Shown here piece after piece: positions 750 to 38,965 of a stretch of DNA of 40,485 nucleotides (positions within the stretch are counted from its first letter, which is position 1; every line of letters begins with the position of its first letter). The DNA comes from a virus, in IMG/VR virus record IMGVR_UViG_3300046703_000026, positions 1-40,485 of that record; one strand, 5' to 3'. The position numbers and the translations under genes are program-made. The notes under the pieces are model-generated. The model made no database searches. It saw only the letters and a program-made list of their open reading frames with translations, and was not told where the DNA came from.

Positions 750-2470
750 AACTTGGTCTCCACCTTCACAGTCTTATTGACCTGACTGCTCTTGTAAGTA
801 TTCTTTCCAAATGTGCTTTTGGATATCTTTGTTGTCATGTAAGTTGTGCGGGAGATTTTCACTCTTATAACTCCGAGGATTACTTCGGGGTCATAAACAT
901 CTGCCATTATATCAGCAGGAAGTGGTCTCGCATAGTACGGAGTTAGTGCCGAACCTGTCACATCTGTAAAGGCGTCTGCTCTTGGGTTCCAGATTTCAAC
1001 TGGACAGAAGACAGTTTCAATAATAGTGTCTGTTTCAGCATTTGCTGAAAGTGGGCTGAATATGAAAGGCGTAAAGACCTCAGGGTCTACAGTGCTCACC
1101 GATGTCTGAGCTATACCATCCTTGAAGTAGTAGGGCGTGAACACATCAGGGTCAGCACTGTCTACTACAGCCTCAGCTATAGCATTGAAGATGTCAACGG
1201 GGGTGAAAACTATTCCTATGGTGCTTTCGGTAAGAGCATCGGCAGTTCCACATATCCACTCGAAAGGCGTGTAGACTTCTCCAAGTAAGGTGTTGGACGC
1301 TATACTTACACTGTCGGGAGTGTACTCAAATGGAGTGTAGATTGTAGGATTGGGGGCATCAACCCTTACATCTGCCGAGGAGATTGTAAGGTTCAGCGGG
1401 TTCCAGAACGATGGTCGATGTCCTAAGTCTGAGATAGCATCAGCGGTATTGCAAGTCCACTCGAAGGGTGTATAGATTGCCTCTACTGTGCTATCAACCA
1501 CAGCCGTTGCTGGTCGGGGGAACAAAACCAGTGGTGTGACTACGTGCTCACTGATAGCATCACAACTAGTGAAGACCGCAGCGGGAGTATAGACGAATGG
1601 AATGTAAGCTGATTGTAAGGATGAACCTGACATACAGCTTGCATTTGCTGGTGTGTACTCGAATGGAGTGTAAATAACGGGTGCGCTTATTGACACTTCG
1701 CATGTAGCTGGCTCAGGCGTGATACACAACGGAGTTACTATAACACCTAAGGCGGTTTCTGTTACACAAGATGCGCTCTCTGGTGAGACTACTACCTCAG
1801 TCGAGCACGTGACATCCACACCAGTAGACGCATCTGCTGGAGATGGAGTAATCTCGACTGGAACAACTGACTCGTAATAGGTTTCGGTCTCTGCGGTTGC
1901 AGGGCTTGGGGTGAACTCAAATGGTATCTCAACTGTGGGCTCAGACGTATCTGAGACAGCATCGGCAGGGTCAGGCGTGTAGTTCAGTGAGCGCACGTAC
2001 TCAACCGACACGCCAATGTTGCTAATCCGTATCTGAGATGGGCTTGTGTACTCAAGGCTTACACCAAGATTACTCAGGCGAATGTAGTCTGCAAGAGTAT
2101 ACTCAAGAGACACACCAAGGTTGGTAGTCCTAATAAATGAAACGGCGTCCTGGTATTCGAGGCTGACACCGATATTGGTCAGGTTGAGATATTCATGCTC
2201 GAAACGTAGCGTTGGATTTACTCTGTCTGCAAGTGCATCGGCAGGGTTTGGAGTGACACTTACGATAACCAGTGGTATCGTGTCAGCTACAGCATCTACT
2301 GGAGTAGGAGCCCATTCAAATGGAGTTAGAACAGTTGGGGCTAATATGTCAGATATAGCATCGGCTGGAGAAGGGGTAATCTCCAGCGCACTGGTTGTTC
2401 CTTCGAGAAGAAAATTGCTACCAGTCTCTAGGAGAAGATAACCACCAGACTCCAGCTTCAGCCTAGCCAT
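746..2470 (-). CDS. Virion surface/fibre protein built from two kinds of short repeat
   Basis: 574 residues. The start MARLKLESGGYLLLETGSNF resembles the K-L-E-S-G-G-x-L-L-L-E leader seen in other phage structural proteins. After residue 28 comes a degenerate repeat of about 21-23 residues, roughly x-I-T-P-x-P-A-D-A-x-x-D-x-x-x-P-x-V-x-T-P, about twenty units in all. After three units it is interrupted by four units of a second, 17-residue repeat (S-N-L-G-V-S-L-E-Y-T, then five residues and I-R). The last ~35 residues are Lys/Thr/Ser-rich and basic. The repeats suggest an elongated beta structure; position between fibre-like genes suggests a tail or surface fibre. No catalytic motif is visible. 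The gene contains one exact copy of the dispersed 18-bp palindrome. Confidence 0.75.
   Translation of the reverse strand: MARLKLESGGYLLLETGSNFLLEGTTSALEITPSPADAISDILAPTVLTPFEWAPTPVDAVADTIPLVIVSVTPNPADALADRVNPTLRFEHEYLNLTNIGVSLEYQDAVSFIRTTNLGVSLEYTLADYIRLSNLGVSLEYTSPSQIRISNIGVSVEYVRSLNYTPDPADAVSDTSEPTVEIPFEFTPSPATAETETYYESVVPVEITPSPADASTGVDVTCSTEVVVSPESASCVTETALGVIVTPLCITPEPATCEVSISAPVIYTPFEYTPANASCMSGSSLQSAYIPFVYTPAAVFTSCDAISEHVVTPLVLFPRPATAVVDSTVEAIYTPFEWTCNTADAISDLGHRPSFWNPLNLTISSADVRVDAPNPTIYTPFEYTPDSVSIASNTLLGEVYTPFEWICGTADALTESTIGIVFTPVDIFNAIAEAVVDSADPDVFTPYYFKDGIAQTSVSTVDPEVFTPFIFSPLSANAETDTIIETVFCPVEIWNPRADAFTDVTGSALTPYYARPLPADIMADVYDPEVILGVIRVKISRTTYMTTKISKSTFGKNTYKSSQVNKTVKVETKL
1939..1956. 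repeat. Dispersed palindrome, exact core
   Basis: GCTCAGACGTATCTGAGA, inside the 574-residue repeat protein. Here the motif is read in a different codon phase (V-S-D-T-S-E-P) from most other coding copies. Confidence 0.6.
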
Positions 2471-2473
2471 GAG

Positions 2474-3739
2474 TTAGGCCTTTCTGTTACGCTTATTATC
2501 GTAGCTCGCCGTGACAGGCCCAGGTAGTATCATGCCGTACTTCTTGCCTGTCCACTTAGTGAGTGTTCCAAGTAGCGGAGTTGGGTAAATAATTCCATGG
2601 GACTGTTTCCATGCTATCCATACTAGCGCACCATTTACAGAGCACTCATTAGTGCCAGCGTCATGGACAATCTTCAGTAAGGCTGCGTTCACAGCGGCTA
2701 CAGTCCAGGCAGCCGCAGTATTGGGGTCAGTAAGCTGGAGCGCCCCTCTCTTAGTAGTCCAAGTTGTGCCACCAGCATCGAAGGTAGTACTTGTCCCATC
2801 TACGCCACCAGAGCGTATCATAAAATTCACGCCAGCCGCACTTCCAGCCGTAGTCCTGCGATGACGTATAACAGAAAGCATACCCAAAATAGTAACACCA
2901 TCAGAGACACCACCAAGAAAACCCAACTTCATCCTGTCTTCTTGGTTAGCGCTAGATGACTTTATCAAATTGTTATCTTGAGAGTCCCAGGTCTGAGCTA
3001 GAACTTGCCAGTCAGCCTTACCTGAGTCCACAACTGTCCAGTTTCCACCACCCGCATCAGTTCCATTTAGTGCCAGCAGGGATATATTGGTAGGCCCAAA
3101 CCAGTCACTATACCCTACGCTGTCCTTAGCACAAATCAACACGCCGCTGAAGTATCTTGCTCCTGCATTAGCCTGTGCCTCGACCACACCCAAGCGATAG
3201 CGCCGTGGCAAAGCAGCCCCATTGTTCAATCCAGTCTGCGTAAGAGCAGGGTCTTCGTGTCCATCTATCTTGACAGTGAACGCTCCAGTAGAGGCATCGG
3301 TCTTCCAGTAGAACTCGATGCGATGCTTGGTGTTCTGTATTACTTTGTTGGTGGTTGATGTATATGCTGTGCTATTAGCATTATCATAAAGTTGGAAGTA
3401 ACCAGATGCAGCCACCCGAAGACTGAACAGTTGGGTGGGTACAGAGTCGAGGACAGAGAAGAAGGCTGTGATTGCCGATGGAACATTCTCGAAGTAAACA
3501 TAGAGTTCTCCGTAAATCTCAGCATCATCATAGCCCCAATCAATCTCTCCATAAGCCACTACACTTGAGCCACCAGTAACGGCACGTAGTAGAAAGAGTT
3601 GACCACTGTACGTACTACCACCCCCTCTTCCAAGGTTAGCACCTGCGCCAACAGAAACAGCATCGAAGGGCGAGTTTGCTAATGGGCAATCCCAATCATT
3701 TACCAAACAGTCGTAGTTTAAGATGCTGCGAAGTGTCAT
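2474..3739 (-). CDS. Virion protein with LamG/concanavalin-like domain
   Basis: 421 residues, rich in Gly, Ser and Thr, with no cysteine clusters. Residues about 60-215 read as a laminin-G/concanavalin-like jelly roll: alternating beta strands with a pattern such as HRIEFYWKTDASTGAFTVKI followed by DGHED. The second half (from about 225) has a similar strand-rich texture and may be another sandwich domain. Such modules bind carbohydrate or decorate phage surfaces. It is separated by two or three bases from its neighbours, so it is part of the same transcript as the other fibre-like genes. AGAGG lies ahead of the ATG. The family is inferred from texture, so the domain label is tentative. Confidence 0.55.
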   Translation of the reverse strand: MTLRSILNYDCLVNDWDCPLANSPFDAVSVGAGANLGRGGGSTYSGQLFLLRAVTGGSSVVAYGEIDWGYDDAEIYGELYVYFENVPSAITAFFSVLDSVPTQLFSLRVAASGYFQLYDNANSTAYTSTTNKVIQNTKHRIEFYWKTDASTGAFTVKIDGHEDPALTQTGLNNGAALPRRYRLGVVEAQANAGARYFSGVLICAKDSVGYSDWFGPTNISLLALNGTDAGGGNWTVVDSGKADWQVLAQTWDSQDNNLIKSSSANQEDRMKLGFLGGVSDGVTILGMLSVIRHRRTTAGSAAGVNFMIRSGGVDGTSTTFDAGGTTWTTKRGALQLTDPNTAAAWTVAAVNAALLKIVHDAGTNECSVNGALVWIAWKQSHGIIYPTPLLGTLTKWTGKKYGMILPGPVTASYDNKRNRKA

Positions 3740-3741
3740 GG

Positions 3742-4653: not shown

Positions 4654-4662
4654 GTCAGCCTC

Positions 4663-4995: not shown

Positions 4996-4996
4996 A

Positions 4997-5191: not shown

Positions 5192-5201
5192 AGAAATTCT
5201 C

Positions 5202-6343: not shown

Positions 6344-6802
6344 TTATGATGTCTCTAAGACACGAGCTTCCAGGTTGATGAGCCTGAAGGGTGAGCCATC
6401 CTGAACTGAGCGCTCTCCACCAAGCGACCAGAAGAACAAAATCTTTCGGTCTGCTGGTGTGGCATTGTCATCAGTAAGTACAGCGTAGGCGGCTGTACCA
6501 GTAGCAGGGATGGGGCCACCGTCTGCTGTCCACTCAACATCCTTGACCTGGACACGGCCCAGGTTGCCAGTGTCGTCCTCTTCAGCGAAATCGAAATCGG
6601 TATCGCCAGGGTCGAGCTCATAGCCACCAGCGACATAACCATTACCATCATCAATCTCGGTAAGGTCAGCCATGGTGTCAGTGTCCTCGGATGGAATGTC
6701 GTCACTGGTAACGAGCGCCACGTAGTAATTGGTCGGGAGCGTGGTTCGCTGGAAAATCTGCTTCAGTGAGTCAGCCTTGAATTTGTTAGTCCAACCAGAC
6801 AT
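6344..6802 (-). CDS. Gp80-like phage virion/tail protein
   Basis: 152 residues. The order helix, N-Y-Y-V-A-L-V-T-S-D, acidic loop, G-Y-x-A-G-G-Y, then a strand with V-Q-V-K-D-V-E-W-T-A and a late I-L-F-F-W-S-L-G-G matches the small phage tail proteins of the Gp80 type, which start with a helix and 'LYVALFTSDP'-like strand. In that family these proteins sit near the tail tip. The body is very acidic. GAGGAG lies seven bases ahead of the ATG. The gene is preceded by an intergenic palindrome at 6816-6833 that ends about ten bases before the start codon, so its translation or transcription could be affected by anything bound there. Confidence 0.6.
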   Translation of the reverse strand: MSGWTNKFKADSLKQIFQRTTLPTNYYVALVTSDDIPSEDTDTMADLTEIDDGNGYVAGGYELDPGDTDFDFAEEDDTGNLGRVQVKDVEWTADGGPIPATGTAAYAVLTDDNATPADRKILFFWSLGGERSVQDGSPFRLINLEARVLETS

Positions 6803-6815
6803 AGTATCTCTCCTC

Positions 6816-6833
6816 GCTCAGATGGGTCTGAGC
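6816..6833. promoter_or_regulatory. Dispersed palindrome copy, intergenic
   Basis: Exact match to R-CTCAGA-Y-N2-R-TCTGAG-Y (GCTCAGATGGGTCTGAGC). It lies in the gap between two minus-strand genes and directly upstream of the Shine-Dalgarno of the 152-residue gene. As a non-coding copy it argues that the motif is not a protein-level feature. Confidence 0.6.
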
Positions 6834-6844
6834 TTGTTTTGTGT

Positions 6845-6876: not shown

Positions 6877-6892
6877 GCATGAAATAAACTGC

Positions 6893-8324: not shown

Positions 8325-8351
8325 AGTTATCTCCTTGTCAATTTTACTATA

Positions 8352-13625: not shown

Positions 13626-14464
13626 TTGAAAATGTCCGTCTTAGCATAGTAATTACTGTGCAGAACCTTGATGTGTCCAGTGTCAGCGGCGAAAGCATAA
13701 GCCTCACCAGCTACACTGTCTGCTATGGCAGTAGAGTTCTCAAACACAAGCCTGACATTTCCATCAGCAGCTACTACAGCGTCAGACTCTCCAGCCCCAC
13801 ACTGGTAACAAGCAATCTCGCAACCCTTGATTTTAGAGGTTGTATCATCTGGAACGGGGCTCAGATTTGTCTGAGCTATTACAGCACTAATGAGACTTCC
13901 GCTATTCTCTTGATTTATAACGGACAGGTTTTCAAGTGTACAGAGCGCATCTATAGTGACTGTGCCTCTGATGATACTCTGCCTGGAGCTAATCCCCTCA
14001 AGGTCAGTGCCAGGAACGAGAACAAAATCTCCCTCCAGGTCTACCTCAGGAAGCCAGATAACATCTCCAGCTACAGAGTCAATTATTGCTGAGCCAAGAC
14101 CAGTGTTTGTGGATGGGTACATGGTCAATAAAGCGCCATCGTGGTACAGGCAGATGGTTATCTGCGTGATACCGTTGCTTCCCCAAGCCATGTCGCTATT
14201 ACGCTTCAGCCAGTCCTGCAAGTCCTCCATAGAGAGACCTTCTTGACCAACAGCCACTACAGTTGGTTCAGGAGTAGTGAAGTCTACTCTTACTTTCTGA
14301 CCAACACTTACAGGGCCTCCCACAATCTCAAGGCGGCGCATAAGAGCTCCATTGCCAGACAGCTTTACGCTTGCCCTGCCATAAAACAGGTCAACGACTG
14401 TGGCTGGTACAGAGATACCAGACTTTGTGCTCGTCTTGATTACTCTTGAGAGAGGCTTAGCCAT
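13622..14464 (-). CDS. OB-fold spike/baseplate protein with beta-helix-like C-terminus
   Basis: 280 residues. Residues about 15-75 form a small beta barrel of the gp5/VgrG OB type (VPATVVDLFYGRASVKLSGN, then G-G-P-V-S-V-G-Q-K-V-R-V-D-F and P-T-V-V-A-V-G), the usual core of a cell-puncturing or hub spike. Residues about 120-280 have regular short strands with Asn, Ser, Ile (S-R-Q-S-I-I-R-G-T-V-T-I-D-A, E-N-L-S-V-I-N-Q-E-N) typical of a right-handed beta helix. Directly after the 1432-residue hub gene (TAATG), it would plug the tail tube or point it at the cell. An exact dispersed palindrome lies at 13859-13876. Confidence 0.6.
   Translation of the reverse strand: MAKPLSRVIKTSTKSGISVPATVVDLFYGRASVKLSGNGALMRRLEIVGGPVSVGQKVRVDFTTPEPTVVAVGQEGLSMEDLQDWLKRNSDMAWGSNGITQITICLYHDGALLTMYPSTNTGLGSAIIDSVAGDVIWLPEVDLEGDFVLVPGTDLEGISSRQSIIRGTVTIDALCTLENLSVINQENSGSLISAVIAQTNLSPVPDDTTSKIKGCEIACYQCGAGESDAVVAADGNVRLVFENSTAIADSVAGEAYAFAADTGHIKVLHSNYYAKTDIFK
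13859..13876. repeat. Dispersed palindrome, exact core
   Basis: GCTCAGATTTGTCTGAGC, inside the OB-fold spike gene, codons for A-Q-T-N-L-S. Confidence 0.6.
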
Positions 14465-17400
14465 TAGTAGGTCACTTTCTCCCGACCACGTATCACCATC
14501 GAGTTATCTGTATTCTCACCAATCATTTGGAACGTGAATTGCACTGACTCGATAATGACATCAGCCACCTGTGGAATTATAGAACCCCAGGGAGTGTAGT
14601 TTATCTTGTAGACATCACCCACCACCAGGGCAAGGTCAGGCCTCATTGTAATCTCATGGGTATGTCTACTCTCGTAGGTCTTACGCATCATTATAACGGC
14701 TGCGTGTAGAGCGCCAACTGTCAGATTTGGCAAGCGCATGAGCTTAGTGGAGAAGCCAAGGGCTTTGGCGAAGTCTGCGTTCTGCCATGTCTTTACGTCC
14801 TCCACACCCTGAATTATAGCATCGCTCGCCCCTTCTGTAGGGACAGCGTGATGATATCGGTGTCTGATAGGAGCTCGTACTGCGGTAATCTCGTCACGTG
14901 TAAATGCATACCAGTAGTCCATAGTGCCATCGGGTTCTGGTACTGCCTCAACAGGACGCTCCTGAATAATCGAGCTCAGCGCACTGCGCCCATCTGTCTC
15001 AAGGTCAATATAGACAGCCTCACGCCAGTCTGCAAGTTCCCTGACGATTACGTTCCTTATGGTCGTTGGGGCAGATATGTACATCTTGACCGTAGTGCCA
15101 TTTATTTCATCATACTCCAGGCCATCAAAGGCTACTGTAGCAATCCATATATCGTTGTGATAGAGACTTACAAAGTCCTCATGGAACAGGACACGATACT
15201 TCTGTTTGGTGGTTGCATTAGGAAGTGTGTACTTCATGGAGTAGAGAGGTGTGCCTGACGGTGTGCTTACAGCCCAAAATTGGAATGCTCCAGCACCAAG
15301 GCTGGTCATCACAACCTTCAAGCCAGTGTCCTCGTCTATGGCGTCTTTCTCTTCGTAGTTATCTGGAGTAACCACTACGTTGGTACGAATTTCATGGCTG
15401 GTTGGAGCATCGAGTTCATACTTGAAATCGAACCCCTCAGAGAACTCACTTGTGGTAATGTCAGTCTCACCAGTCACGCTCAGACTTGTCTGAGTGAAAT
15501 CACCAGGAAAGTTTGCACTCGCACCACATAAATTTGACACAATCCTAATCAGGTCTGAGACCGTGGTGTCATCCAGACCACCAGCACCCTGATACCAGTA
15601 GCACTTTATTTCTCCTGGCAGTTCCAAGAAAGCGAGCTCACCTTCTGCATGGCGAGTCTTGGTCGGGCTGATACCAGTCACACCTATGAAGCCACCAGTA
15701 ATCCAGACCTTGTTCATCAGGGTGTGGTAAAGCTGTCCTATCTGTGCGTTGTCTGAGTAATAGCGAGCTCGATTATACAGGTTCGTCACACTACCCTCAG
15801 TGGTAATCCAGATAGTCCAGTCAGCACCAGCACAGATGAAATTAGCTCCACTGTCCAGGGCAATCAGATAACCAGTTAGGCTATCCTCACTGGCTGTGTA
15901 ATCAAAGTCACGACACTCAAGTCCAGCCTTGTTATTGCCGTAGGGTGGAGCATAGATACCCATGTTGCGGAACTGGTAGGGGCCACGGCAGTAGGTGGGT
16001 GGAGTAATCTTGCCACTCGCTGGATGTCCAGTGGTCGGCCCGTAAGTGTACTTATTCTCCCTAATCCTGAGTGTTCCAGAGTCAGGGAAAGCTGAGATGC
16101 TGTCCAGGGGATTGACAGGGATGCCATCGGCATTCGTGACTGTCTCGCTATTACCAGCGTAGTAGCCCATGATACGCACCCATGGGGCAGCGATGTTTCC
16201 GTAGATACCACAGCGCATGGCTACAACACGAGAGGTGAACTGAAAGCCATCTGTCTCTTTCCAGTCATAGCTGACCACAGTCTCAAAATTGTCTGTGGTG
16301 TAGTTCCACATGTTCAGGATATACGTGCCATCCTTGTGGATGAACTGCAAGCCCATATTACAATCGCCTGTAGGGTCATCAATGGCAGTGAAGCCTGGAG
16401 CGGCGTTCACGAGTTCACGCTCAATCCCACCCCTACATAGGACAATCTCGGCCTTGCTGGTCGTCCTATTATATCTGCCAACGATGTAATCTGAGGCGGT
16501 CTCTGCGTGACCTACAAGCCCACAGGCCGTAGGATAATTGGCGATACCACCAGTGATACTATTCCCAAAGATTGAAGACTGGTTGAAGTTCCATGCATTG
16601 TAGGGCTTCTCAGCGAACATGATAAAGGGTCTACCAGTGGATGGGACTTTGAACGTGCCATTGTCTTGTTTTGTCCAACTGGTGTTTGTGTCTGACCAGA
16701 CCAGGGGAACCTCTACACCATCCAAGAAGTCTACACGTGCTGGACAGAACCACGTGGCATTGGCACAGTGGAATGACAGCCCAACCTTCTTTATCCTGTC
16801 TCCAATCACCCATGCATCAGCATGGTCGCCAGTGTTAGTGATGCTCACGACAATAGGATAGTCTCCAGCCTTGGCAGTTGGGTAAGTATTCGGGAAACGG
16901 CGTGTATCTGCTATTGTTATAACGGGAGCTTTCTCGTTTCCGTCCTCGTCTTCTACAATAAAGATAAGGTGGATATCATCGTTGTTGTCGCCAGACACAG
17001 CATGAGACCAGCCATAGATATTGATATTCAAAGTGTTGGCTGTAATCTTGGGGTTCGAGTCCAGGTTCAGGATAGAAGAGATTTCATCCTTATTGATAAA
17101 TCCAAGGTGATGAGCACCTGTAGTCTCTTTGTAATCTACACCACCAGAGACAATCAGGTCTACTGGAGTAATGGTCAACCCGCCACCAGTATAGGTATAT
17201 CCCTCGTGGTTCCAGAAGTCGATAGAGAACTTCGTGGTAGTCATACTGCCACCAGGGGCAGTATAGAGCTTGCCGCTGTCTTCGGTCATAGGGTCAAACA
17301 GGGCAGACTTACCAAAGAACTCTGCGTAGAATGGCATGGACAATCCGCTCAGACGCCACTGAGACTCATTGATACAGGACACCTTGCAATCACGTGAGCC

Positions 17401-18762
17401 CAGGTCGATGCCATAGTCTGCATCATCAATGATGTACGTTCCATACAGCACGTACTCATCATAAAGGACAGGATTAGCAGGGTCGGCAGGGTCGGCGGTC
17501 TTCATGCCTACATACAGTTTCAGTCTAGCAGTTTCGGTAAGGTAGACGCTATTGAAGTACTCTTCCTTGCCAGATACAACCGAGAGATTGAGTTGGTTCA
17601 GGCTGCTGTCTGAGGCTGACAGGATTTGGCTTTCAGACAGGTGGGTATGAATATAATCAGTGCCATTCTTTCCATCAAACACCCACGTGATATCAGCACT
17701 GGCATACCTATTGCAGCTTGAAATAAAGAGCTTCGCATCTCCCACAGTAGCAAGACTACGATAGCCTATGTTGCTGACCAGGGTGAACCTGTCAATCGAA
17801 AAGGTCTTCCCATCTTCAGTATAAAGGATGAGCGTGTAGGGGTTCTGTCCCTCGTAGGCATCAGTCCTAATGAACTGTCCTGCCATGTAGATTGTGCCAT
17901 TGTGCTCGTAGACGTTGGCAATTCTGAACTCACACTGAGATACTTCGAGCTCAGCAGGAAGAGCAACGTAGATATCGCTCCAGGTGTTGGTGTCATAGTC
18001 ATAGTAGACCGCTTCAACATTACCCATGGAGGCGTTGCTCATAAAGCAATAGGTCTTGTTACCAAGTCTGGCAGCACCAGAGAATTGAGCAAGGTCATCA
18101 TAAGCAGTAAGGTCACGCTTAGCTGGCTCACCTTCTGCGGGAGTAGGAAGGTCTACCCTCTTCGGGAACATGAAACGGTAAGGAGCTTCAATCGGAGTAG
18201 TACCATTCATAATAATGGGGCGATAGCCACCATCGTCATAGGTAATCAGAACGGCCTCAGATGTACTCACGGCATGTACGGCATGTACAGGATAGGCTGT
18301 GGGTGGGGTCAGTGTAGCTTCCGCTGCGCTCAGACTTATCGGAGAACCCCAGGTAATACTATACCTTTTGACATCAGAACTGATTACCGCAAAGAGCTTC
18401 GAGCCGAATACTCCAGGCTTAGCACTGGTCGTCAGTGCAAGAGAGGTCTCACTGGCAGAGCCATCTACAACATACTTCAGGGTAGTGCCATCCACAAAGA
18501 ACGTGACGAGCTTACTCAACGTAGCTGAGTAGGCAATCTCCTGCCGAAGTGGATTGTCGATAACTCCTATAGCGTCTGCTACATCTGCTATGGGATTGGC
18601 GTCATCAGTCCAGTCATCGAAGTAGATACGTGAAGGAGCTACCTCAGCCCTCATCAGTAGGTAGTAGCTGTTGGGGATATCAATAGCATTCCGCAGGAAA
18701 GCTCCAGTCGGGTCTATTAGATTTTCTGTCTTATCTACAGCTTGCGTGAAATCCCTTGCCAT
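14464..18762 (-). CDS. Large tail hub protein (baseplate/tail tip)
   Basis: 1432 residues, second largest protein here. The C-terminal 110 residues have the hub pattern M-R-P-D-L-A-L-V-V-G-D-V-Y-K-I-N-Y, V-A-D-V-I-I-E-S-V-Q-F and M-V-I-R-G-R-E-K, as in gp27/Tal-type proteins that form the ring at the tail end. The first ~450 residues have Tyr-, Thr- and Asp-rich strands and resemble a beta-propeller insert; the middle holds further beta domains, including lectin-like stretches. Between the distal tail protein and the spike-like protein, this is the expected hub position. Start and stop are both TAATG-coupled. Two palindrome copies (15478, 18328) lie inside. No protease or lysozyme motif is obvious. 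Confidence 0.65.
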   Translation of the reverse strand: MARDFTQAVDKTENLIDPTGAFLRNAIDIPNSYYLLMRAEVAPSRIYFDDWTDDANPIADVADAIGVIDNPLRQEIAYSATLSKLVTFFVDGTTLKYVVDGSASETSLALTTSAKPGVFGSKLFAVISSDVKRYSITWGSPISLSAAEATLTPPTAYPVHAVHAVSTSEAVLITYDDGGYRPIIMNGTTPIEAPYRFMFPKRVDLPTPAEGEPAKRDLTAYDDLAQFSGAARLGNKTYCFMSNASMGNVEAVYYDYDTNTWSDIYVALPAELEVSQCEFRIANVYEHNGTIYMAGQFIRTDAYEGQNPYTLILYTEDGKTFSIDRFTLVSNIGYRSLATVGDAKLFISSCNRYASADITWVFDGKNGTDYIHTHLSESQILSASDSSLNQLNLSVVSGKEEYFNSVYLTETARLKLYVGMKTADPADPANPVLYDEYVLYGTYIIDDADYGIDLGSRDCKVSCINESQWRLSGLSMPFYAEFFGKSALFDPMTEDSGKLYTAPGGSMTTTKFSIDFWNHEGYTYTGGGLTITPVDLIVSGGVDYKETTGAHHLGFINKDEISSILNLDSNPKITANTLNINIYGWSHAVSGDNNDDIHLIFIVEDEDGNEKAPVITIADTRRFPNTYPTAKAGDYPIVVSITNTGDHADAWVIGDRIKKVGLSFHCANATWFCPARVDFLDGVEVPLVWSDTNTSWTKQDNGTFKVPSTGRPFIMFAEKPYNAWNFNQSSIFGNSITGGIANYPTACGLVGHAETASDYIVGRYNRTTSKAEIVLCRGGIERELVNAAPGFTAIDDPTGDCNMGLQFIHKDGTYILNMWNYTTDNFETVVSYDWKETDGFQFTSRVVAMRCGIYGNIAAPWVRIMGYYAGNSETVTNADGIPVNPLDSISAFPDSGTLRIRENKYTYGPTTGHPASGKITPPTYCRGPYQFRNMGIYAPPYGNNKAGLECRDFDYTASEDSLTGYLIALDSGANFICAGADWTIWITTEGSVTNLYNRARYYSDNAQIGQLYHTLMNKVWITGGFIGVTGISPTKTRHAEGELAFLELPGEIKCYWYQGAGGLDDTTVSDLIRIVSNLCGASANFPGDFTQTSLSVTGETDITTSEFSEGFDFKYELDAPTSHEIRTNVVVTPDNYEEKDAIDEDTGLKVVMTSLGAGAFQFWAVSTPSGTPLYSMKYTLPNATTKQKYRVLFHEDFVSLYHNDIWIATVAFDGLEYDEINGTTVKMYISAPTTIRNVIVRELADWREAVYIDLETDGRSALSSIIQERPVEAVPEPDGTMDYWYAFTRDEITAVRAPIRHRYHHAVPTEGASDAIIQGVEDVKTWQNADFAKALGFSTKLMRLPNLTVGALHAAVIMMRKTYESRHTHEITMRPDLALVVGDVYKINYTPWGSIIPQVADVIIESVQFTFQMIGENTDNSMVIRGREKVTY
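15478..15495. repeat. Dispersed palindrome, exact core
   Basis: GCTCAGACTTGTCTGAGT, inside the hub gene, codons for T-Q-T-S-L-S. Confidence 0.6.
18328..18345. repeat. Dispersed palindrome, one mismatch
   Basis: GCTCAGACTTATCGGAGA, inside the hub gene, one core mismatch. Confidence 0.45.
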
Positions 18763-22100: not shown

Positions 22101-25100
22101 CCACCAATCGCTGGAGCGTACTTGGATAGCATAGAGTCTTTACCACCAAGGCTACCAATCCAGGCTGCATACCCAAAGCCACCAAGACCAGCTACGGCTG
22201 TATTGTAAACATCCGATAGCCCAGGTGTGGTTTGAGCAAATGTCTGAAGACCTGGAAGTCCCTGAACTTCACTGCCATACAGAGCCTTTAGGTTCTGTAT
22301 ACGTTGTGCCTGATTGTATGGCATGTATGGTGTGCCAGACATCTGTCCTGCTGCCCCGCCAAAGACGCCCTCTAGCTGAGCAGCCTCAGCGCCACTATAG
22401 GTCATGCCTCCAGTGGCTAAACCGAACATACGACCAGCGAACATCATACCCCATCCACCAAGAGCCTTGCGAGCCATGCCCCCAAAGCCAGCCAGTCCCC
22501 TTGGTTGTGCTTCTCCTGGTAGTACACCAGCCAATTCTTCATTTCTAGCAGCTTCAAATTTTGCTAGGTCTTCCGCTTGCTTGATGCCACGAGGAACAAT
22601 ACCAGCTATCCTCTCTAGCTGTCCTGTGGCATTTCGCTGAAGAAGACCAGCTTCCTCAAGAGGCCCACCCACCTTCTCGGTCTTTATCTGCGCCGATATC
22701 TGAGAGCCTTCTTTGACAAGTCGAGTCTCCTCGTTCTTGGCAGTGTTGTAATCTATGGAGCCCTTCCTTAGGGCTTCCATATTGTCGTATAACTTCTGAG
22801 ATATTGTTGAAAGTTTCTCGAAGTGAGCAGCGAGAACTGACCCCATAGGAGCGCCAGCGGTATCTTTGGTCTTCGTGACCTCGAAGGCTTTGGATGCAGT
22901 GATTAGAGGTACTCCAGCCTGACCCTCTTGTGTTGATGTGTCACGCACCTGACGTGCCAAATCTATAACTTGGCTTCGCTGTGCCGCTGGTAATTTGTCG
23001 AAGGCTATTTGACTTTCGTTCTTGATGACCTGTCCAGCAAGTCTGTACATCTCGTGCAACTGCTGTCCTGGCTTCTGGAAACCACCAAATTTCTTGGTTA
23101 TATCCTCGGAGCTCATATTAGCCAATGCCGCAGATGCTTCAGCTACAGTGGTAACTGAGGTTCCAGTAACAGCGCCTAGCTTTGCAAATAGAGCCTGATT
23201 AGCTGCATAAACTCCCCTATTCAGGTCTGGAGCGCCAGAACTCGTCTGTGGGAAGAATTGGTTGTACTGCTGTAAGAACCTGTTAGCTTGAGCGGTTGGG
23301 TCAACCTGTCCAGGCTTGGGAGCCAAAGGAACTCCACCACTTGGAGCAACAGGAGCACCAGTTGTGCCACCAGGGGCTACAGGGGTTCCAGCCGTAGGAG
23401 CGCCACTTCCAGTGGGAGGAGCGTATCTTCCAACCTGATTGACAAAATTGCTATTGTCAAGTCGTTTGTTTATCAGTTGCTCCATACGTGCCTTGCCAAG
23501 AAGAGTCGGAGCCTGACGTTGTTCTCCAGCCAGACGAGCTAACTCTTCTGCATCTTTTTGAGTATAGCCACCAAGAACTGGAGTGGTGGGTATGGCAGTG
23601 GGAACAGTGGTAGCGGCTGGAGGGGTAGCGGCGGGAGGTTGCACTGGAATAGTGGCCTGTTGACTCAGAGGCGTCTGAGCTTGAGTAGTACCACTAGTAG
23701 TACCAGTTGCTCCAGGCATAGGTGGCATAAATGGCATTCCTGCAAATGCAGAGCCCATACCAGACTGGATGACAGAGGGGCCTGTAGCCTGTGTCTGTGT
23801 CAAGTCCTGGTAAGCGCCTACACCAATCGAGCGTAGGGCTTTGTAGGCAGCACCCGCAGTATCCATCATCGCTCTCACATGAGAGAGAGGTTGTCCTGCC
23901 GCCTGTAATTGCTTCTGACGTTGTTCCCAATAAGCTGGAGCGGCTGCGGCGATGTCCCACATCTTGGCAAGCGACCTTGGTCTGGCAGCCAGCACATCTC
24001 TTGAGCCAGCGGCTATCTGCTGTGTAAGCTCATCGTGCTGTGTAGGGTTAGAGACATACGAAGTGGTAATCCCTGCGCCCCAATATCCAGGCTGATGTTG
24101 CTCTTCAATCATACCCTGAATAGCTCCGACATCGGCGTTAGCGCCCTTCTCGATTTCAGTAGCCAATGGACTACCAGCCTGAACGAATGTCGGACGAGAA
24201 CCAAAGCGACCAGCCAATAAGTTCTCTTGTGCTTCTTTATATTCAGCCTCGGTCTCAAAGCGTGAGCGCAGTGGTTGGAGTATCCGCTCAGCGGCAGCTT
24301 CACCTTCTTTACCACCCCTGGCAACATCCTTCAGGTTTTCTTCAATTGTCCAGGGAGTAACACGTGACTGTAGCTTGGCTGCTGGTAGACGCTCTTTGAT
24401 GATTTGCTCTCGTGTAATACCAGCGCTTACGTGCTTGAGTTCCTCGAATTGCATGAAGGACTCTTGCCCAGGTCTACGTACATTGTGTACAAAGTCTTCG
24501 GTTGCAGACACAATGGTTTCATGCTGCTGACCAGAGAGTTTACCTCTCCATGTGAACGGAGAAGACCAGGGGAACGCAGGATTGCTGGCTTCCACACTTT
24601 CGAGTCTACCAGTGTCTTCGTTATAGCGCATGGGATTGACACTCTTCCATCCAGCCTTTTCTCCCATGATAGCTCCAAGTCGAGCCTCCATGATAGTGCC
24701 AGCTTCTAGGTACTTATTCCCCTCAGATGGGAAAAGCATATTGGACAGCTTGAATGGATTTTGATATCCAAGGAACTTTCCAACAGAATAAACATTGGAT
24801 GCAAGTAGGGACTGTTCACGATACTCTTGGCGAGGCCTCTTACCCAATGTGGTGTTAGTCTCGTATTTGGGGCCGACTCCAGCCAGGGCTGGAACTTCGT
24901 GACCACGTATCTCTACAGGCATATCTGCTACCTGTTCGTACATCGTGCCGAGCTCAGAGGTCAGCCCCATCTTACCAAAGCCCAATAGGTTCTGGATGTT
25001 ACCCAATCCCCATGCAAGAGTATTATTGACACCCCTACCAAGGTTCTGAGCTCCACGCATGAACTTCATAGCTGTATCAGCAGGGAATAATTTACCCTTC

Positions 25101-28100
25101 ATCATATTGAAGAGTGGTTGCTGAAGAGCGGCATTCTGCATGAGTAATTGCCCTTCTTCAGTCTGAGCAAATGCATCTGGAGGTTGCCACCCAGGTTCAT
25201 TGAGAGCCTTCGATGCTACAGCCTTGCCGAACATAGCTCCGAGGATAGGCATATTGAACATCTTGAGGCGGTTTTCGTCCTGAGCGTAATTGGCCCTGAA
25301 CCAATCCATACCAGCATCACGCATCGCCTGAGCCTTCTCGACTATCGTTCCCTTGCCCTGATAAGGGCCAGTGAGTGCCTCTTGTAGACTTGTCTGCTCA
25401 TAGTACTGGCGCTCCATCTCCAAATTCGGAGTACCAGCGTTCCTGGCAGCCTGTATGTCTCTCCACATATTCACATCGAGTGGATTACGCCCTGATGCTG
25501 GAACAAACGCTCGTGAGCCTTCAGGAGAGAAGTCGCTTGCCAGAAGTTCTGGAGTTGGTAAGAACTGCTTGCCCAATAAGTTGCTTGGCTGGATGGCAGA
25601 GTAGAGCATGTTCTGAGTAGTCTGCATGATACTCGCCTTGTCCAGGCGGTTATTCTGAGCAGCCTTACTCGTCCAGTTTATATCGTTCTTGTCATTCGTC
25701 AAACCCCATCCCATGCCAAGGGTTCCAACGCCACCGCTAGTACCTGTTGACAAGAAAGACTTTTGGTACATCTCCACCAGTGGTGTTGGGTTCTTGGCTA
25801 AGATATCCAAGAATGGCTGGTATAGCTGAGCACGAGTGCGGCGAGCTTGCATGATTTGTTCAGTCGTCCATCCACTGACGGATTGCTGAGCTTCTCTTGC
25901 CCTAGTGTAGTTATAAGTACTACCCATCATGGTCTTTGAGCCCGACCATGTTTGTAGGCTTTCCTTGAGCATCTGGTATGGATATAGGCCAGCTTTGTCG
26001 TACTGTGTACCCATCAGCTTAGCTATGGCAGCCATGCCACCAGAGCCAGTCTTTAGAATGTTCTGATAGAGCGGGTCAAATTGCTCACTCATGCCAGAGG
26101 GAAATAGTCCCTCAAGTATCTTGCGATAAGGGACACCAGCGACCTCTCGAAGACCAGTCTCAACGCTTGGTCTGAGCTCGCCCTTTCTGGTGAATGCCCC
26201 AAACTGTACGGACAAATTTCCACTCTTCCCACGGCGAGCACTTGTGATGCCCATCGCAGCCCACAACTGGTCTAAGTCAAAGTCGCCACCAAGAATGGAG
26301 GATAGTCCAGCCCCAATACGAAAGACGGAGTTGGACATACCACTTGCAATAGGCACTGCCGAGCCCCTACGTTCTAGCTGTTGACTTGTGACAAGGTTGC
26401 CAAAGAACGCAGAGCCCTTACCTTCTAGCAGAGGCCATCTACCGCCAGAGATAGGAAGCCCCATCTCTTTGACGTATTGCTTCACTGCTGAGGGCATCCG
26501 TATCTTGGAGTTCTTACCCTGGATAGCGTTCCACATCTGGTTTACGTCTTCTTCAGTTGGTTCAACACCAATGCCAGTAAGACCATGACGAATAGATGCT
26601 CTGGCGAGCTCTTCAGGAACATAGACCTCGTTCTGTTTCAAGCCCTGCCAGTATGAATAACGAGCGTTTGTGATAGGCACATCGCTTCCGAACAGTGCTT
26701 TATTGCCTTCGGTCTTCACGCCCTCGGAGAGTCCAAACCTCTTAGCGAGGTAGTTATATATCTTATTCCCACCAGACATGACAGCATCGGGGTCATGGTA
26801 AGTAGAACCCTCAATGCCCTGGCGAATAGCACCCTGAGCCATGTTCCATAATCGGGTCTTATCTTCTCCAGTGACACTCTCTTCTGCCTGAGTACGAATG
26901 GCATGAGTGGATGGTAGGTAGTACCCTGGCGCTGTCTCAAAAGCAAGAGGTCTGGTCTTCAGGGTATCAGGTTCTACATTCGGGAAGTATTCCTGAAGTT
27001 TAGACTCGAAGGCTGTCAATCCCGCAAGGGTCGAACCACTCCTACCAAGGGATGACATCAAGCCCACGTCCGATGACATCTTGCTCGCCATCTGCTCAGT
27101 GATGGTTGTAGACTCTGGTATTTCAAAGCCTGAGGTTCCTCTTGCCCTATCTACCATGGATAGAGCGGTCAATTGAGCCGCTCCCCATCGTGCAGGGTTC
27201 CTCATCTCGTGTATCTTCTGAGCCTCAAGCCCACGTGACAAATTACCAGCAGCTTCAGTATCAAGAGTGGACAGTCCAAGAGCAGCAGCGTAGTCAGGAG
27301 CCTTGGCTGTAAGTAGTCCAGCGATTTCAGCATTAGCTCTACCACCACCGCTCCACTCTAGGCCAGCACTGGATATACCTGTAACCGCAAAGCCAGGGAT
27401 ACCATGCGTCCTCATCCTCTGACCATTCTCGGCTTGCGCTGCAAAGCCAAATTGTTTCTGAAATGCAGCTTCAGACTCAGCAGCACCCATGTTGGGATTG
27501 GCAAGCTGATAGGGAGATAGAAGGGTCTGATACTCTTGCTCTTCATACATCCTGGATACCTGGGTGGTCATGTCCGAACCCACAAAGCCTGTGCCATATC
27601 TCCTCAGATTTGTAAGGTTCTGAGGAGACTGAGCCATGGTGTTGAGTTCAGTCTCAGACATCTGAGAAAGTTGCTGAGTAGTTCTACCACCAAGAAAGAT
27701 GCGCTGTAGGATATCTCTACCAACCTCATGCGCTGGTAGTCCCATAAGTTCACTCATGCGGTCAATATCAAGACGAGCCGCAGGGTTCTGAGCCCTGGCT
27801 GTTCTGGTCTCTCCAAGCACTGTAGTAACACCCTCGTACTGTTGTGCAAGAGCCTGAGCCTCTGCACCAGTCTTCTGAAGCTCAGATAATCTGAGGTCTT
27901 CAGCGTACTGAGAGAGTAGTCTCTCTTGTCGAGTGGCATTCAATCCACCGAGGGAAGTAATCATCTTCTCTGGTAATGACTTTATTTCAATGGACGTTGT
28001 AGTGATGGGAATAGGCGACTTTGTGCCAACGTTGATTACTGGTCTGCCAGCTTCTTCGGTAAGACCAATCTTCTCGCCTTCTCCAGCCCACTTAGCGTTT

Positions 28101-29692: not shown

Positions 29693-29698
29693 AACTCC

Positions 29699-31095: not shown

Positions 31096-31709
31096 TTTCG
31101 TGTAGCGCTCCAGATGCGACCATAGGTGTGATAGTCCTTCCATAGACCAGAAGGTATCACAATTTCGTCAATGACCTTGGTGACACCCACTTGGCGTGTA
31201 TGGTAGTCATGGAAGGCGATATGTCCACCAGAGGGAATGAACCCAAACCAAGCAGTGTAGTCTGCAAGTACATTTGCAAACTTGTGGCTTGCGTCAATGA
31301 AGAGCAGGTCAATGGGTTTGGTGCGCCGAGATGCAGCCTTTAGGCTGCTAATCATCTTTGGGATAACAAAATCACTCAGACCCATCTGAGCCACTTGGTC
31401 TTGGAATATCTGCCAAGTTTCCTCACTGGAGTAGTGAGCGAAGGTCTTGCCAACACCCTTTGTCCAAAGGTCAATGGCATAGATTTTGGCTGTGTTATTG
31501 CCAGCCTCTTTAGCAGCAGAGGCCATAACACAAATCGACTTGCCACGGTGGGAGCCAATCTCAACAATACATCCACCCATGGGGATATTCAAGCCAAGCC
31601 ACGAAAGATGCTTGACCTCAATATCGTTGATGCCTGTGGTGCTACCCTTGTCGCCAGACAAGAGTGCATTCAGTTCATCATGTTTGTTCAAAATAGAAAG
31701 CTGTTCCAT
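31092..31709 (-). CDS. Class I SAM-dependent methyltransferase (MTase_24-like)
   Basis: 205 residues. The SAM-binding loop is G-C-I-V-E-I-G-S-H-R-G-K-S-I-C-V (about 49-64), the acidic motif A-I-D-L-W follows near 81, and I-D-L-L-F-I-D-A-S-H and G-G-H-I-A-F-H-D-Y-H complete the core typical of small-molecule or sugar methyltransferases. Its start is inside the end of the glycerophosphotransferase-like gene (32-base overlap) with AAGGAG upstream, and its end overlaps the CmcI-like gene, so the three form one tightly coupled cassette. An exact dispersed palindrome (31374-31391) lies in codons for A-Q-M-G-L-S. Confidence 0.75.
   Translation of the reverse strand: MEQLSILNKHDELNALLSGDKGSTTGINDIEVKHLSWLGLNIPMGGCIVEIGSHRGKSICVMASAAKEAGNNTAKIYAIDLWTKGVGKTFAHYSSEETWQIFQDQVAQMGLSDFVIPKMISSLKAASRRTKPIDLLFIDASHKFANVLADYTAWFGFIPSGGHIAFHDYHTRQVGVTKVIDEIVIPSGLWKDYHTYGRIWSATRK
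31374..31391. repeat. Dispersed palindrome, exact core
   Basis: ACTCAGACCCATCTGAGC inside the MTase_24-like gene, codons for A-Q-M-G-L-S. Confidence 0.6.
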
Positions 31710-32766
31710 CTCGTTTACTCCTTATGTATTCTGTTATTGCCCTAGCAGCCCTCTTCGCAGATTTGCCCATGTAGGGATACAACTCATCAATCATCTTGAG
31801 TCTTTGTGGATAAAATTCTTCTGGATGAGCTATGGTTCTACGAACTGCTGTTAGTAGCTGGCTAGGTTTGTTCACACAAATTCCTATGTCTGTGTAATCC
31901 CAAAACCTTATTCCCCAATGTACATCTCTACGGAACCAAGGTGCGTTCAATATTATAACAGGTTTACCAGTACAGGAAAACTCGTACATCGTTGACGATG
32001 CATCGTTGATATAGATATCGCAACGCTTCATAATCTTACTGAAGTCGGGCTCGATGTCAGTAATACCACAGTTGTTATAAAGCGGAATTAGCTTATTGAT
32101 GATTTTGGGGTGTCCGTGTCCTACAATATGAAATTTCTGTGCAAGTTCTGGAAGTATCTCCAGGTAGAAGTCAAAGGCGTTTCCAGCCTCAGGACAAACG
32201 GCTTTACCGTCCCAATGAAAGGATATCCCAATTGTAGGATTTTCTTTCTTGGTTGGCATCTCTAGTGAGATGGTATCCATCTTTGGAGTACCTATAATAA
32301 CCTGTGGCGCTGTCGGGAAAGTCTTAGCTGTCTTATCGTATATATTCTGATTTGGAGGAAGGAACAATGATACTTTACTACGCAAGCCCTCTCCACCACC
32401 ATAGCCTGGATGTACTTCAAAACTAAGTCCTACCCCATGCTCCATGAGAAAGAATGGTCGCATAGAGAATTGATGCCACGCTTGCTCCATATCCCCATAA
32501 GCACAGGTAACGATTGGCGACATGCCTGGAGGTCGTACTAGGAGTTTGTTCCCTCTTACGCTATGGGAGTGTAGGGTCTCGTACTCAAAGCCCTTGGTTT
32601 TAGCATATTCTTCAATGCATTCAGGAATATAAAACGTACCACGCTCAGATGGTCTGAGCTCGTTCCAAACTGGTAATAAATGGTCTATAAAATGAGTTCT
32701 ACGTGCAAAGAAGTCGGGCTTCATAGCCCAAGACGGTTTGTGTACCGTGGGTGCGTATTCTGCCAT
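31678..32766 (-). CDS. CDP-glycerol glycerophosphotransferase-like (GT-B) enzyme
   Basis: 362 residues. The C-terminal half has the Glyphos_transf/GT-B hallmark: C-D-I-Y-I-N-D-A-S-S-T-M-Y-E-F-S-C-T-G-K-P-V-I-I-L-N, equivalent to the D-Y-S-S-x-x-x-D-F-x-x-x-x-K-P motif of teichoic-acid polymerases, preceded by F-H-I-V-G-H-G-H-P. These enzymes transfer glycerol phosphate or sugars to a growing glycan. Residues 1-180 would be the acceptor half. The gene opens a three-gene cassette after the tail tube gene, with AAGGTGG directly after a strong hairpin. Whether it acts on virion or host glycans is not shown. A variant palindrome lies near its start (32643-32659). Confidence 0.7.
   Translation of the reverse strand: MAEYAPTVHKPSWAMKPDFFARRTHFIDHLLPVWNELRPSERGTFYIPECIEEYAKTKGFEYETLHSHSVRGNKLLVRPPGMSPIVTCAYGDMEQAWHQFSMRPFFLMEHGVGLSFEVHPGYGGGEGLRSKVSLFLPPNQNIYDKTAKTFPTAPQVIIGTPKMDTISLEMPTKKENPTIGISFHWDGKAVCPEAGNAFDFYLEILPELAQKFHIVGHGHPKIINKLIPLYNNCGITDIEPDFSKIMKRCDIYINDASSTMYEFSCTGKPVIILNAPWFRRDVHWGIRFWDYTDIGICVNKPSQLLTAVRRTIAHPEEFYPQRLKMIDELYPYMGKSAKRAARAITEYIRSKRDGTAFYFEQT
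32643..32659. repeat. Palindrome variant, spacer of three
   Basis: GCTCAGATGGTCTGAGC near the start of the glycerophosphotransferase-like gene, in a third codon phase (E-L-R-P-S-E-R). Confidence 0.4.
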
Positions 32767-32777: not shown

Positions 32778-32808
32778 GGTAGCCCTCAGAGGAGGGCTGA
32801 GGGCTACC
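32778..32808 (-). terminator. Perfect 12-bp hairpin between tail tube and glycan cassette
   Basis: GGTAGCCCTCAG (32778-32789) and CTGAGGGCTACC (32797-32808) are perfect inverted arms around a seven-base loop. In the minus-strand RNA the stem ends directly against the Shine-Dalgarno of the glycerophosphotransferase-like gene and is not followed by a U tract. It could attenuate transcription into the cassette, hold back its translation, or protect the upstream tail tube message from 3' exonucleases. Confidence 0.6.
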
Positions 32809-33910: not shown

Positions 33911-33933
33911 TTTATCACCTCATAGTCGTAGAG

Positions 33934-35119: not shown

Positions 35120-35130
35120 CAGAAACGCTC

Positions 35131-36507: not shown

Positions 36508-36527
36508 TTCAATACCTCTCTAGGGGT

Positions 36528-37220: not shown

Positions 37221-37224
37221 TCTA

Positions 37225-38838
37225 TTACTCCTTTGTGTCAGGTTTAGGTTTTGTGGGCGGTTTCGGCTTTCCTGCGCCGCCAGCACCCACCATAGCGGGT
37301 GGAGGCATCGCATCAGCACGAATTTCCGCTAATTCCTTGATTTGAGCTTTGATGGCAGCGTACTCGCCTTCAGGGTCTTCAATATCGTCAAATTGAGCCA
37401 ATAAGTGCTCTAGTGAGCCCAAATTGCCTGAAGCACGACTGACCATCTCGTTTACGAAGATTTCTCTGTCTCGTGGAAGCACAGGAGCCCATTTGCGCTC
37501 TATACGCATATCCAGCACTGCCTCAGGTAGTGTAGGCAGTTTCCATTGACTTCTGACAGCTTCAGGGACAGATAAAGTCATCTTCAGTAGTAAATTATCC
37601 ATAAGTGCAAGAGCATCAGCCCATGCAATGCGTTCCATACCTGTATGCGACCACAAAGGCCACATACGCATCGCCAGGGTCAAGGCGCTCCTCTGAGAGC
37701 CTTCATCCTCGCCATCAGCTACCGCAGGGATGAAGGCCTCTCTTCGGAACTGATTGTAAAGCTGCTCATTGAGTTCCTTCATGGACGTGGAGGCTTGAGC
37801 AGCGCCTAGCTCACTCATGTCAGGGTCTCCCTCTTTGCCAGTGATGGACGGATTTGGGGGAAGTTGGACAACCCTAACTCCTGGAGCTAGTTCGTACACA
37901 TCGGGACGACCTGAGGTGTTCTTGATGACATAATAACGATGGCTGTCATCACTTACAGCGTCACCATAGTCGGCAATACGCTTATTCATCTCTTCTACGA
38001 TACCCTGGACGTTCTGAGTAATCAGACTGTCTCCGTAGAAGCCACTGGTACGAACATGGGGGATATACCAAATTGGCACAGCCCCAAACTTGTTGTCACC
38101 CTGATAGTAGAGATTTGCAGCCGTAGTGGGGTCTGACTTACCAGTAGGAACCAAGCGACCATTTATAGTCACTTCATAGTAGTCAGGCTGCCAGTACTCG
38201 ACATAGTAGACGAGCTCATCAGGTGGAAACTCCATGCCATAAAGTCGGAAGGCTTCATGTGGAGAAATGGCTCGAACTATCCAGCCTTGCTCTAGTCTGA
38301 ACTGGTCTCCCGACATAGGGATACCAACGAAGTTTCCAGGGTGTACATCTTCAATTCTGAAGGGAGAAGGAACAAATTTGGCTTCAGGGACGAAAGATAG
38401 CTTGAAAACACTACCTCCGTACACCTGAGCGTTGATACCATTCGTGAGCATCAAAGAACGACCACTATTGTTGTACCAGACACGATTTATCCAGTCCTGA
38501 CCAGCTTTCGCCTCTTTCTTCATGTTCATGTCGTCAGGATGCAGAATAGCGGGTGCTAGGGGTCTGGAGTCGTCTTTTGTCTCGCCAAATAGGGCATAAG
38601 CGTGTTTGTAGACCGCTCCACGAATAGGATTTATCTTTATAGGGTATTTCTCAACGGTACGTCCACCCTGAACCTGTCTCTCGTTCAGTTTGTCGCCGTT
38701 GAACCAAGACTCAAGCTCGTCATACTCCATGCGCTTAGAGTGCCATTCACTTTCAGGAAAATCGTGAATAGAGCCCAGGTTGAATACTCCGAGCTTTATT
38801 TCTCCAAGAAGTTCATTTACTTTTATGAAATTAGGCAC
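37225..38838 (-). CDS. Portal protein (SPP1 gp6-like)
   Basis: 537 residues. The portal ring is the DNA entry point of the head. Matching features: N-terminal wing (ELLGEIKLGVFNLGSI), G-G-S-V-F-K-L-S-F, V-G-I-P, the stem/crown region with A-Q-A-S-T-S-M-K-E-L-N-E-Q-L-Y, and an acidic Pro/Lys-rich tail. The frame starts with GTG; GAGGAG (38844-38849) is five bases ahead of the third codon, a GTG at 38838, and touches the first GTG, so I place the start at 38838. First gene after the promoter at 38917-38945. Confidence 0.85.
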   Translation of the reverse strand: MPNFIKVNELLGEIKLGVFNLGSIHDFPESEWHSKRMEYDELESWFNGDKLNERQVQGGRTVEKYPIKINPIRGAVYKHAYALFGETKDDSRPLAPAILHPDDMNMKKEAKAGQDWINRVWYNNSGRSLMLTNGINAQVYGGSVFKLSFVPEAKFVPSPFRIEDVHPGNFVGIPMSGDQFRLEQGWIVRAISPHEAFRLYGMEFPPDELVYYVEYWQPDYYEVTINGRLVPTGKSDPTTAANLYYQGDNKFGAVPIWYIPHVRTSGFYGDSLITQNVQGIVEEMNKRIADYGDAVSDDSHRYYVIKNTSGRPDVYELAPGVRVVQLPPNPSITGKEGDPDMSELGAAQASTSMKELNEQLYNQFRREAFIPAVADGEDEGSQRSALTLAMRMWPLWSHTGMERIAWADALALMDNLLLKMTLSVPEAVRSQWKLPTLPEAVLDMRIERKWAPVLPRDREIFVNEMVSRASGNLGSLEHLLAQFDDIEDPEGEYAAIKAQIKELAEIRADAMPPPAMVGAGGAGKPKPPTKPKPDTKE

Positions 38839-38916
38839 AGACACTCCTCACACGAACTAACTTTGAGCAAAACTAGGTTATTTGTCATGTGTTGTTTCCG
38901 ATGTCTGAGCTTTGTT

Positions 38917-38945
38917 AGTGTATTATACATTTTCAGGGTTGTCAA
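38917..38945 (-). promoter_or_regulatory. Sigma70-like promoter upstream of portal
   Basis: Reading the minus strand: TTGACA (38945-38940), 17 bases, TACACT (38922-38917), with a transcript start near 38910 and a leader of ~70 bases before the portal start. A second box, TATAAT (38927-38922), overlaps but would have only 12 bases from the -35 box. The TTGACA is perfect. It probably drives the structural genes. Confidence 0.65.
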
Positions 38946-38947
38946 GT

Positions 38948-38965
38948 ACTCAGACGAGTCTGAGT
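38948..38965. promoter_or_regulatory. Operator-like palindrome two bases from the -35 box
   Basis: ACTCAGACGAGTCTGAGT is a perfect palindrome with arms of eight and a two-base centre. It ends two bases upstream of the TTGACA box, centred near -46 of the predicted start, where an activator or a repressor could contact RNA polymerase. It is the best-placed copy of the dispersed motif. Confidence 0.65.

Follow-up and report, generated by a model that had tools for sequence, protein, structure and literature searches.

Introduction

The closest described counterpart of the element reported here is found in cluster O mycobacteriophages. Their genomes carry about 34 dispersed 17-bp repeats, TGTTCGG-N3-CCGAACA, described in 2015 as having an unknown function and as unlikely to control transcription initiation; the authors listed a ParB-like protein as predicted to bind DNA, deemed its involvement in genome stability unlikely and left the repeats unexplained (PMC4351075, PMC6439249). 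No later explanation was found in the literature searched. Here, we describe a palindrome of comparable design, CTCAGA-N4-TCTGAG, in a viral contig of 40,485 nucleotides (IMG/VR record IMGVR_UViG_3300046703_000026, positions 1 to 40,485; the whole stretch is hereafter called the window), together with its counterparts in related viruses. Based on sequence comparisons we propose, at a probability of about 0.62, that the palindromes are parS-like loading sites for a ParB/Noc-family protein of the phage itself, acting without ParA.

Operator-like repeats are likewise dispersed in the genomes of phiC31 (conserved inverted repeats, CIRs) and of cluster A mycobacteriophages (stoperators); these phages are temperate, encode integrases and use the repeats as binding sites for their repressors of lysogeny. 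In Firmicutes, Noc-binding sites are dispersed over the chromosome, and Noc, a host protein, tethers DNA to the membrane and blocks division. RK2 is a plasmid whose ParA is IncC. Noc is a ParB paralogue without the ParA-binding motif (PMC12704722), and KorB is a ParB-family sliding clamp that depends on cytidine triphosphate (CTP) and acts at kilobase distance (PMC11790492). Cluster A stoperators lack such symmetry, and their orientation follows transcription (PMC4351075).

Dispersed palindromes in the window

An earlier note on the window had listed seven exact copies of CTCAGA-N4-TCTGAG, and all seven lie where it placed them. As it also had it, two are intergenic: CTCAGATGGGTCTGAG (6817..6832), 15 bp upstream of the open reading frame (ORF) 6344-6802(-), and CTCAGACGAGTCTGAG (38949..38964), upstream of the portal gene. 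The other five are coding, namely CTCAGACGTATCTGAG (1940..1955) inside ORF 746-2470(-), CTCAGATTTGTCTGAG (13860..13875) inside ORF 13622-14464(-), CTCAGACTTGTCTGAG (15479..15494) inside a 1432-aa ORF (14464-18762, minus strand), CTCAGAGGCGTCTGAG (23664..23679) inside a 3501-aa ORF (19187-29692, minus strand) and CTCAGACCCATCTGAG (31375..31390) inside a DNA-methyltransferase-like ORF (31092-31709, minus strand). Four of these five share one codon phase, the copy at 1940 being in another, and six of the seven exact copies fit the extended pattern R-CTCAGA-Y-N2-R; both observations had been made before and hold.

The variant copies named in the note are real, each lying one base to the right of where it had put them. 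They comprise an N2-spaced site, CTCAGACATCTGAG (27653..27666), and an N3-spaced site, CTCAGATAATCTGAG (27881..27895), both inside the 3501-aa ORF; a further N3-spaced site, CTCAGATGGTCTGAG (32644..32658), inside ORF 31678-32766(-); and a one-mismatch copy, CTCAGACTTATCGGAG (18329..18344). A second one-mismatch copy, CTCAGACGCCACTGAG (17348..17363), had been overlooked. A degenerate CTCAG-N7-CTGAG (32785..32801) forms the centre of a hairpin in the intergenic DNA that follows the tail-tube gene.

Contig G001 is 99.98% identical to the window over 24.6 kb, from window position 15914 to its end, and prolongs the phage by 18.7 kb to the right, taking in the terminase and an early region that runs rightward. 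Two more exact sites lie at positions 30834 and 32565 of G001, along with further N2- and N3-spaced copies, including at 41565 the 15-mer seen at window position 27881. The 59-kb union, still an incomplete phage genome, holds nine exact N4, four N3 and two N2 sites. Combining all copies gives the half-site CTCAGAY, with 0, 1 or 2 bases between the halves.

These numbers are far above chance, as the note had argued. Allowing up to two mismatches gives 16 matches, against 2.85 expected (standard deviation 1.45, maximum 6) in 100 dinucleotide shuffles, and simulating the 59-kb union with an order-2 Markov model yielded at most two copies. The codon-preserving control that the note had suggested points the same way: 1000 within-gene synonymous permutations left 0.10 coding copies on average and never more than 2, against the five observed. 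When all 6-mer half-sites with spacers of 0-14 were counted, CTCAGA-N4-TCTGAG was the window's top palindrome and no other came near. Converging CTCAGA...TCTGAG pairs occur at spacings of 4 (seven times), 3 (twice), 2 (once) and 10 (once), all other spacings up to 40 being empty; the observed half-site frequencies predict only 0.03 pairs per spacing. The CTCAGA half-site alone is about twofold over-represented on the coding strand beyond the palindromes (46 vs 22.9 in codon shuffles). The shuffles and simulations rule out chance or codon bias as the origin of the sites, and a repeat at the protein level is ruled out by their presence in unrelated proteins, in several codon phases and in intergenic DNA.

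Each relative has its own palindrome

We applied the same count to whole contigs of relatives with capsid identities of 51-76% and of more distant terminase relatives. Nearly every sizeable relative has its own dominant dispersed palindrome, typically in 8-20 copies: CTCCAA-N2-TTGGAG (CCTCCAAGCTTGGAGG type) in G002 (10 copies), TTCAGA-N5-TCTGAA in G007 (8), CTCCAC-N3-GTGGAG in G008 (6, or 8 for the shorter TCCAC-N3-GTGGA), CTCCAC-N2/N3-GTGGAG (CTCCA-N4/N5-TGGAG) in G010 (10), TTCCTA-N1-TAGGAA in G018 (12), TTCCAATTGGAA in G019 (13) and TTCGGC-N2-GCCGAA in G020 (20). The fragments G009, G021 and G024 have their own palindromes in smaller numbers, and G011 and several short contigs showed no dominant dispersed palindrome in the 6-mer count. 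Order-2 Markov simulations of the relatives' genomes never exceeded two copies, the value also obtained for the lambda genome, while phiC31, the positive control in the same scan, gave TACTCACGTGAGTA 15 times, presumably its CIRs.

The half-sites of the relatives have YTC in common, at or near the outer edge. Structural proteins of G002 are 25-51% identical to those of the window, which makes these viruses true relatives that changed motif. Lineage-specific motifs of this kind are what a binding protein and its site would leave if they diverged together.

Sites at matching places in close relatives, a further check raised by the note, were also found. L002, L003 and L004 (80% capsid identity) carry an exact copy, CTCAGACACGTCTGAG, upstream of the portal gene, in the position corresponding to that in the window, and the two longer of these contigs, L002 and L003, contain a second copy, which in L003 (8570) lies in the intergenic gap that follows the tail-tube gene. 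The same gap holds an intact palindrome in G002 (17400) and the degenerate copy in the window. The matching portal site and the tail-tube-gap copies of L003 and the window indicate that position is partly kept, with turnover. Some sites form the core of longer terminator-like intergenic inverted repeats (window 32785-32801; L003 8564-8591; G002 1070-1100; G018 68355-68383).

ORFs of at least 100 aa contain 60 of the 96 sites, whereas about 86% of the sequence is coding; coding regions are therefore tolerated but somewhat avoided. The sites also tend to be spaced more evenly than random positions. The coefficient of variation in G019 is 0.36 vs 0.90 (p 0.0007), G018 and G020 each reach p 0.02, and the eight genomes combined give p 1.5e-4.

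Separately from its dispersed sites, and unlike them in sequence, G007 has five tandem GTGAAC-N4-GTTCAC palindromes every 22-24 bp (82540-82655; L045 2540-2655), which could be an origin or an operator array.

A ParB/Noc-family protein in the lineage

By sequence and predicted fold, the same phage and four relatives encode a ParB/Noc-family protein. The genes lie at 42399-43256 in G001 (beyond the window, with the 3' end cut off), 11186-12055 in G010, 8169-9044 in G007, 59865-60647 in G018 and 16940-17755 in G019. The family was first picked out by weak matches to ParB models (phrog_4715 'ParB-like'); a RecA-like ATPase identity for it was ruled out, the sequences being those of ParB. All five proteins have the GxRRxxA box and the layout of an N-domain followed by a helix-turn-helix domain. 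The box reads GKRRIKAV in the G001 protein and GRRRL(L/M)A in those of G010, G018 and G019, and downstream there is an ENxxR-type box (ENNTR in G010, ENAQR in G019, a degenerate VNNLR in G001). In G018 and G019, which have the shortest sites, the linker before the helix-turn-helix is shorter.

The likeness to ParB proteins extends over both the N-domain and the helix-turn-helix domain, in sequence and in fold. Compared with solved structures, the family profile (A8) matched Noc (7ol9, 5e-13), ParB (4umk, 7e-12), Spo0J (1vz0, 4e-11) and KorB (8qa8, 1e-4), the best match spanning positions 40-257. For an AlphaFold model of the G001 protein, the top 25 Foldseek matches, at E<=0.001, are all to Noc, ParB or KorB. 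A search for further viruses with this protein returned the known members alone.

ParA (PF13614) was not found in the nine palindrome-bearing records scanned, among them the incomplete genome of this phage, nor in the cluster O phage Firecracker, with Adler as a positive control. A tyrosine integrase (PF00589) was equally absent from the palindrome-bearing records tested and from Firecracker, with Hedwig positive. Pfam scans of the large relatives revealed no clear phage repressor, the 59-kb union for this phage being an incomplete genome. The Pfam content of the large relatives is of virulent type, with DnaB, SSB, RecU, ribonucleotide reductase, Thy1 and RNA ligase.

Gene layout and distance to cultured phages

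The head and tail genes form one long leftward block in the window, with the portal at 37225-38844, the major capsid at 35131-36507 and a tail tube-like gene at 32828-33910. The 3501-aa ORF is probably the tape measure. Its size had suggested hairpin promoters for an N4-like virion RNA polymerase; gene order rules this out, since the ORF comes after the tail-tube gene, where a tape measure belongs. Within the block, two adjoining, overlapping ORFs (30457-31709) both have partial matches to a DNA methyltransferase family and are perhaps a split or frameshifted gene.

The terminase large subunit of this phage (L014 4384-6003) had no tblastn match at 1e-5 among 50,697 phage records, which places the lineage far from cultured phages. 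Searches of cultured phages with capsid, terminase, tail-tube, helicase and ParB sequences gave distant capsid matches only, or nothing.

Discussion

The palindromes are almost certainly DNA sites. The earlier note had placed the signal at the DNA level, and this is borne out by central palindromy in several relatives, by more than one codon phase and by differing sequences built on the same plan. Its suggestion of a dimeric DNA-binding protein is strongly supported, and of the options it gave (repressor, activator or nucleoid protein) the last comes closest to the ParB/Noc-family protein favoured here. The likeness it drew to stoperators, with a lysogenic repressor silencing the genome, is not supported: neither an integrase nor ParA nor any clear repressor came to light.

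We envisage that a ParB dimer would place its two helix-turn-helix domains on the two CTCAGAY half-sites. Binding of a nucleotide, probably CTP, would then shut the N-terminal domains into a ring, and the closed clamp would depart from the site and slide across the adjoining kilobases. As sites recur every few kilobases, such clamps could cover the whole genome. Most likely they would coat the genome throughout, organising the viral DNA and excluding other machinery, in the manner of KorB on RK2 or Noc on the Bacillus chromosome. We are less confident of any specific benefit of such a coat, whether silencing of host transcription, shielding from nucleases or compaction, than of the loading sites themselves.

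The main argument for this mechanism is that dispersed palindromes and an orphan ParB are paired in two otherwise unrelated groups. Cluster O phages (Corndogvirus) have dozens of invariant palindromes, partly intragenic, and a ParB-like gene, with no integrase and no ParA. The lineage described here likewise combines near-invariant dispersed palindromes and a ParB gene with the lack of an integrase, although G020 is without a recognisable ParB. Firecracker carries 34 dispersed sites, and its ParB was recovered by the lineage profile at E 3e-5. The cluster O half-site TGTTCGG shares TTCGG with that of G020. However, the cluster O sites are denser at one genome end, and beyond ParB, a single shared gene was found between Firecracker and the lineage, for an endonuclease VII-like protein. 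In the viral contigs G026, G027, G029 and G030, TGTTCGGAATCCGAACA occurs, directly or as its complement, about eight times in a cluster spanning 5 kb (e.g. G026 14639-19707), the cluster O motif in another arrangement.

Among characterised proteins, Noc provides the closest solved structures to the lineage ParB by sequence and fold, whereas the Noc-binding site is unlike the phage palindromes. KorB and its operator O_B offer a ParB-family protein with operators of its own, and the G001 model matches its fold (8qa9, E 1e-5). The differences are that RK2 is a plasmid, on which KorA locks the clamp, and that here no ParA was found and the site sequence is another. A conventional ParABS system is not indicated either, as there is no cognate ParA among the genes found and the sites are genome-wide instead of clustered near parB or the origin.

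Several observations weigh against the proposed loading sites. G020 is apparently complete and carries 20 sites, yet no ParB is recognisable among its genes beyond a borderline match (E 0.014-0.06) to a 289-aa gene (13745-14614) beside its RecU-like gene. A ParB gene is also not sufficient for such sites, as Hedwig (ParB and integrase) and Adler (ParB and ParA) have no comparable palindrome; nor does Sazerac, which encodes a ParB-methylase-type protein. The sites are not consistently adjacent to parB, and evenness of spacing is significant alone in just three of eight genomes. Many of the contigs are metagenomic fragments. The model of the G001 protein is of moderate confidence (predicted local distance difference test, pLDDT, 72; predicted template modelling score, pTM, 0.53). 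Finally, we know of no characterised ParB site with a spacer as variable as the 0-2 bp between CTCAGAY halves.

Could another protein bind the sites? It seems unlikely that the sites are operators, in the manner of the phiC31 CIRs and cluster A stoperators, of a phage repressor that escaped recognition and that silences the genome during lysogeny or pseudolysogeny. The dispersal is similar, as the 15 phiC31 copies in our scan illustrate, lineage-specific motifs are akin to immunity groups, and one HTH_20/HTH_11 match was obtained among small proteins scanned from G018, G019, G020 and G010. However, neither PF00589 nor ParA was found, the genes of the large relatives look like those of virulent phages, the sites are palindromic where cluster A stoperators are not, and some of the 60 sites in long ORFs lie deep in tape-measure genes, far from promoters. 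A host-encoded dimeric protein, nucleoid or regulatory, bound as a handle or decoy through motifs that vary with the hosts, would account both for G020 and for the sharp motif differences between lineages. We regard it as quite improbable nonetheless, given that five lineage members carry a phage ParB, that multiple copies of the G002 palindrome occur in G002 alone within the viral collection, and that the host genome is without the site in the best-studied analogue (PMC4351075).

It is very unlikely that the palindromes serve in replication or in recombination, such as by marking positions favoured by the conserved RecU-like Holliday-junction resolvase. This family, which carries cysteine pairs (e.g. 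L051 10407-11018 in G010, and orthologues), is the sole non-structural family found in all five large relatives, among them G020; two of the scanned proteins match PF03838 (RecU), and even spacing would fit. On the other hand, its profile (A5) has no meaningful match in solved structures, leaving its identity less firm than that of ParB, and resolvases need no palindromes; we know of none that uses lineage-specific sites of 12-17 bp. Most improbable of all are RNA hairpins acting in antitermination, processing or termination. Each palindrome could fold as a small hairpin and a few sites lie inside longer intergenic ones (window 32785, L003 8570, G002 1077), but the majority are within genes and the one-arm changes at 17348 and 18329 are uncompensated. 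Moreover, the symmetry passes through the would-be loop in G019 (no spacer), G018 (1 bp), G002 (central AGCT) and G010 (central CTAG), which is predicted by double-stranded DNA and not by a hairpin, and thus favours duplex DNA.

Loading sites for the phage's own ParB/Noc-family protein would point to a function for the ParB proteins that phages carry as orphans. According to a 2023 paper, no characterised phage with ParB alone was known (PMC10286716), and a 2025 fold survey mentions many uncharacterised orphan ParB proteins (PMC12704722). We tentatively suggest, at somewhat below even odds, that this apparently virulent lineage and, independently, the cluster O phages coat their entire genomes with an orphan ParB clamp loaded at dispersed parS-like sites whose specificity changes rapidly, with fast co-evolution of protein and site. 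The lineage offers many natural variants of a cluster O-like design together with a concrete candidate protein, making the question testable by binding assays, and its varied combinations of half-site and spacer form a natural panel for changes in ParB-type DNA specificity.

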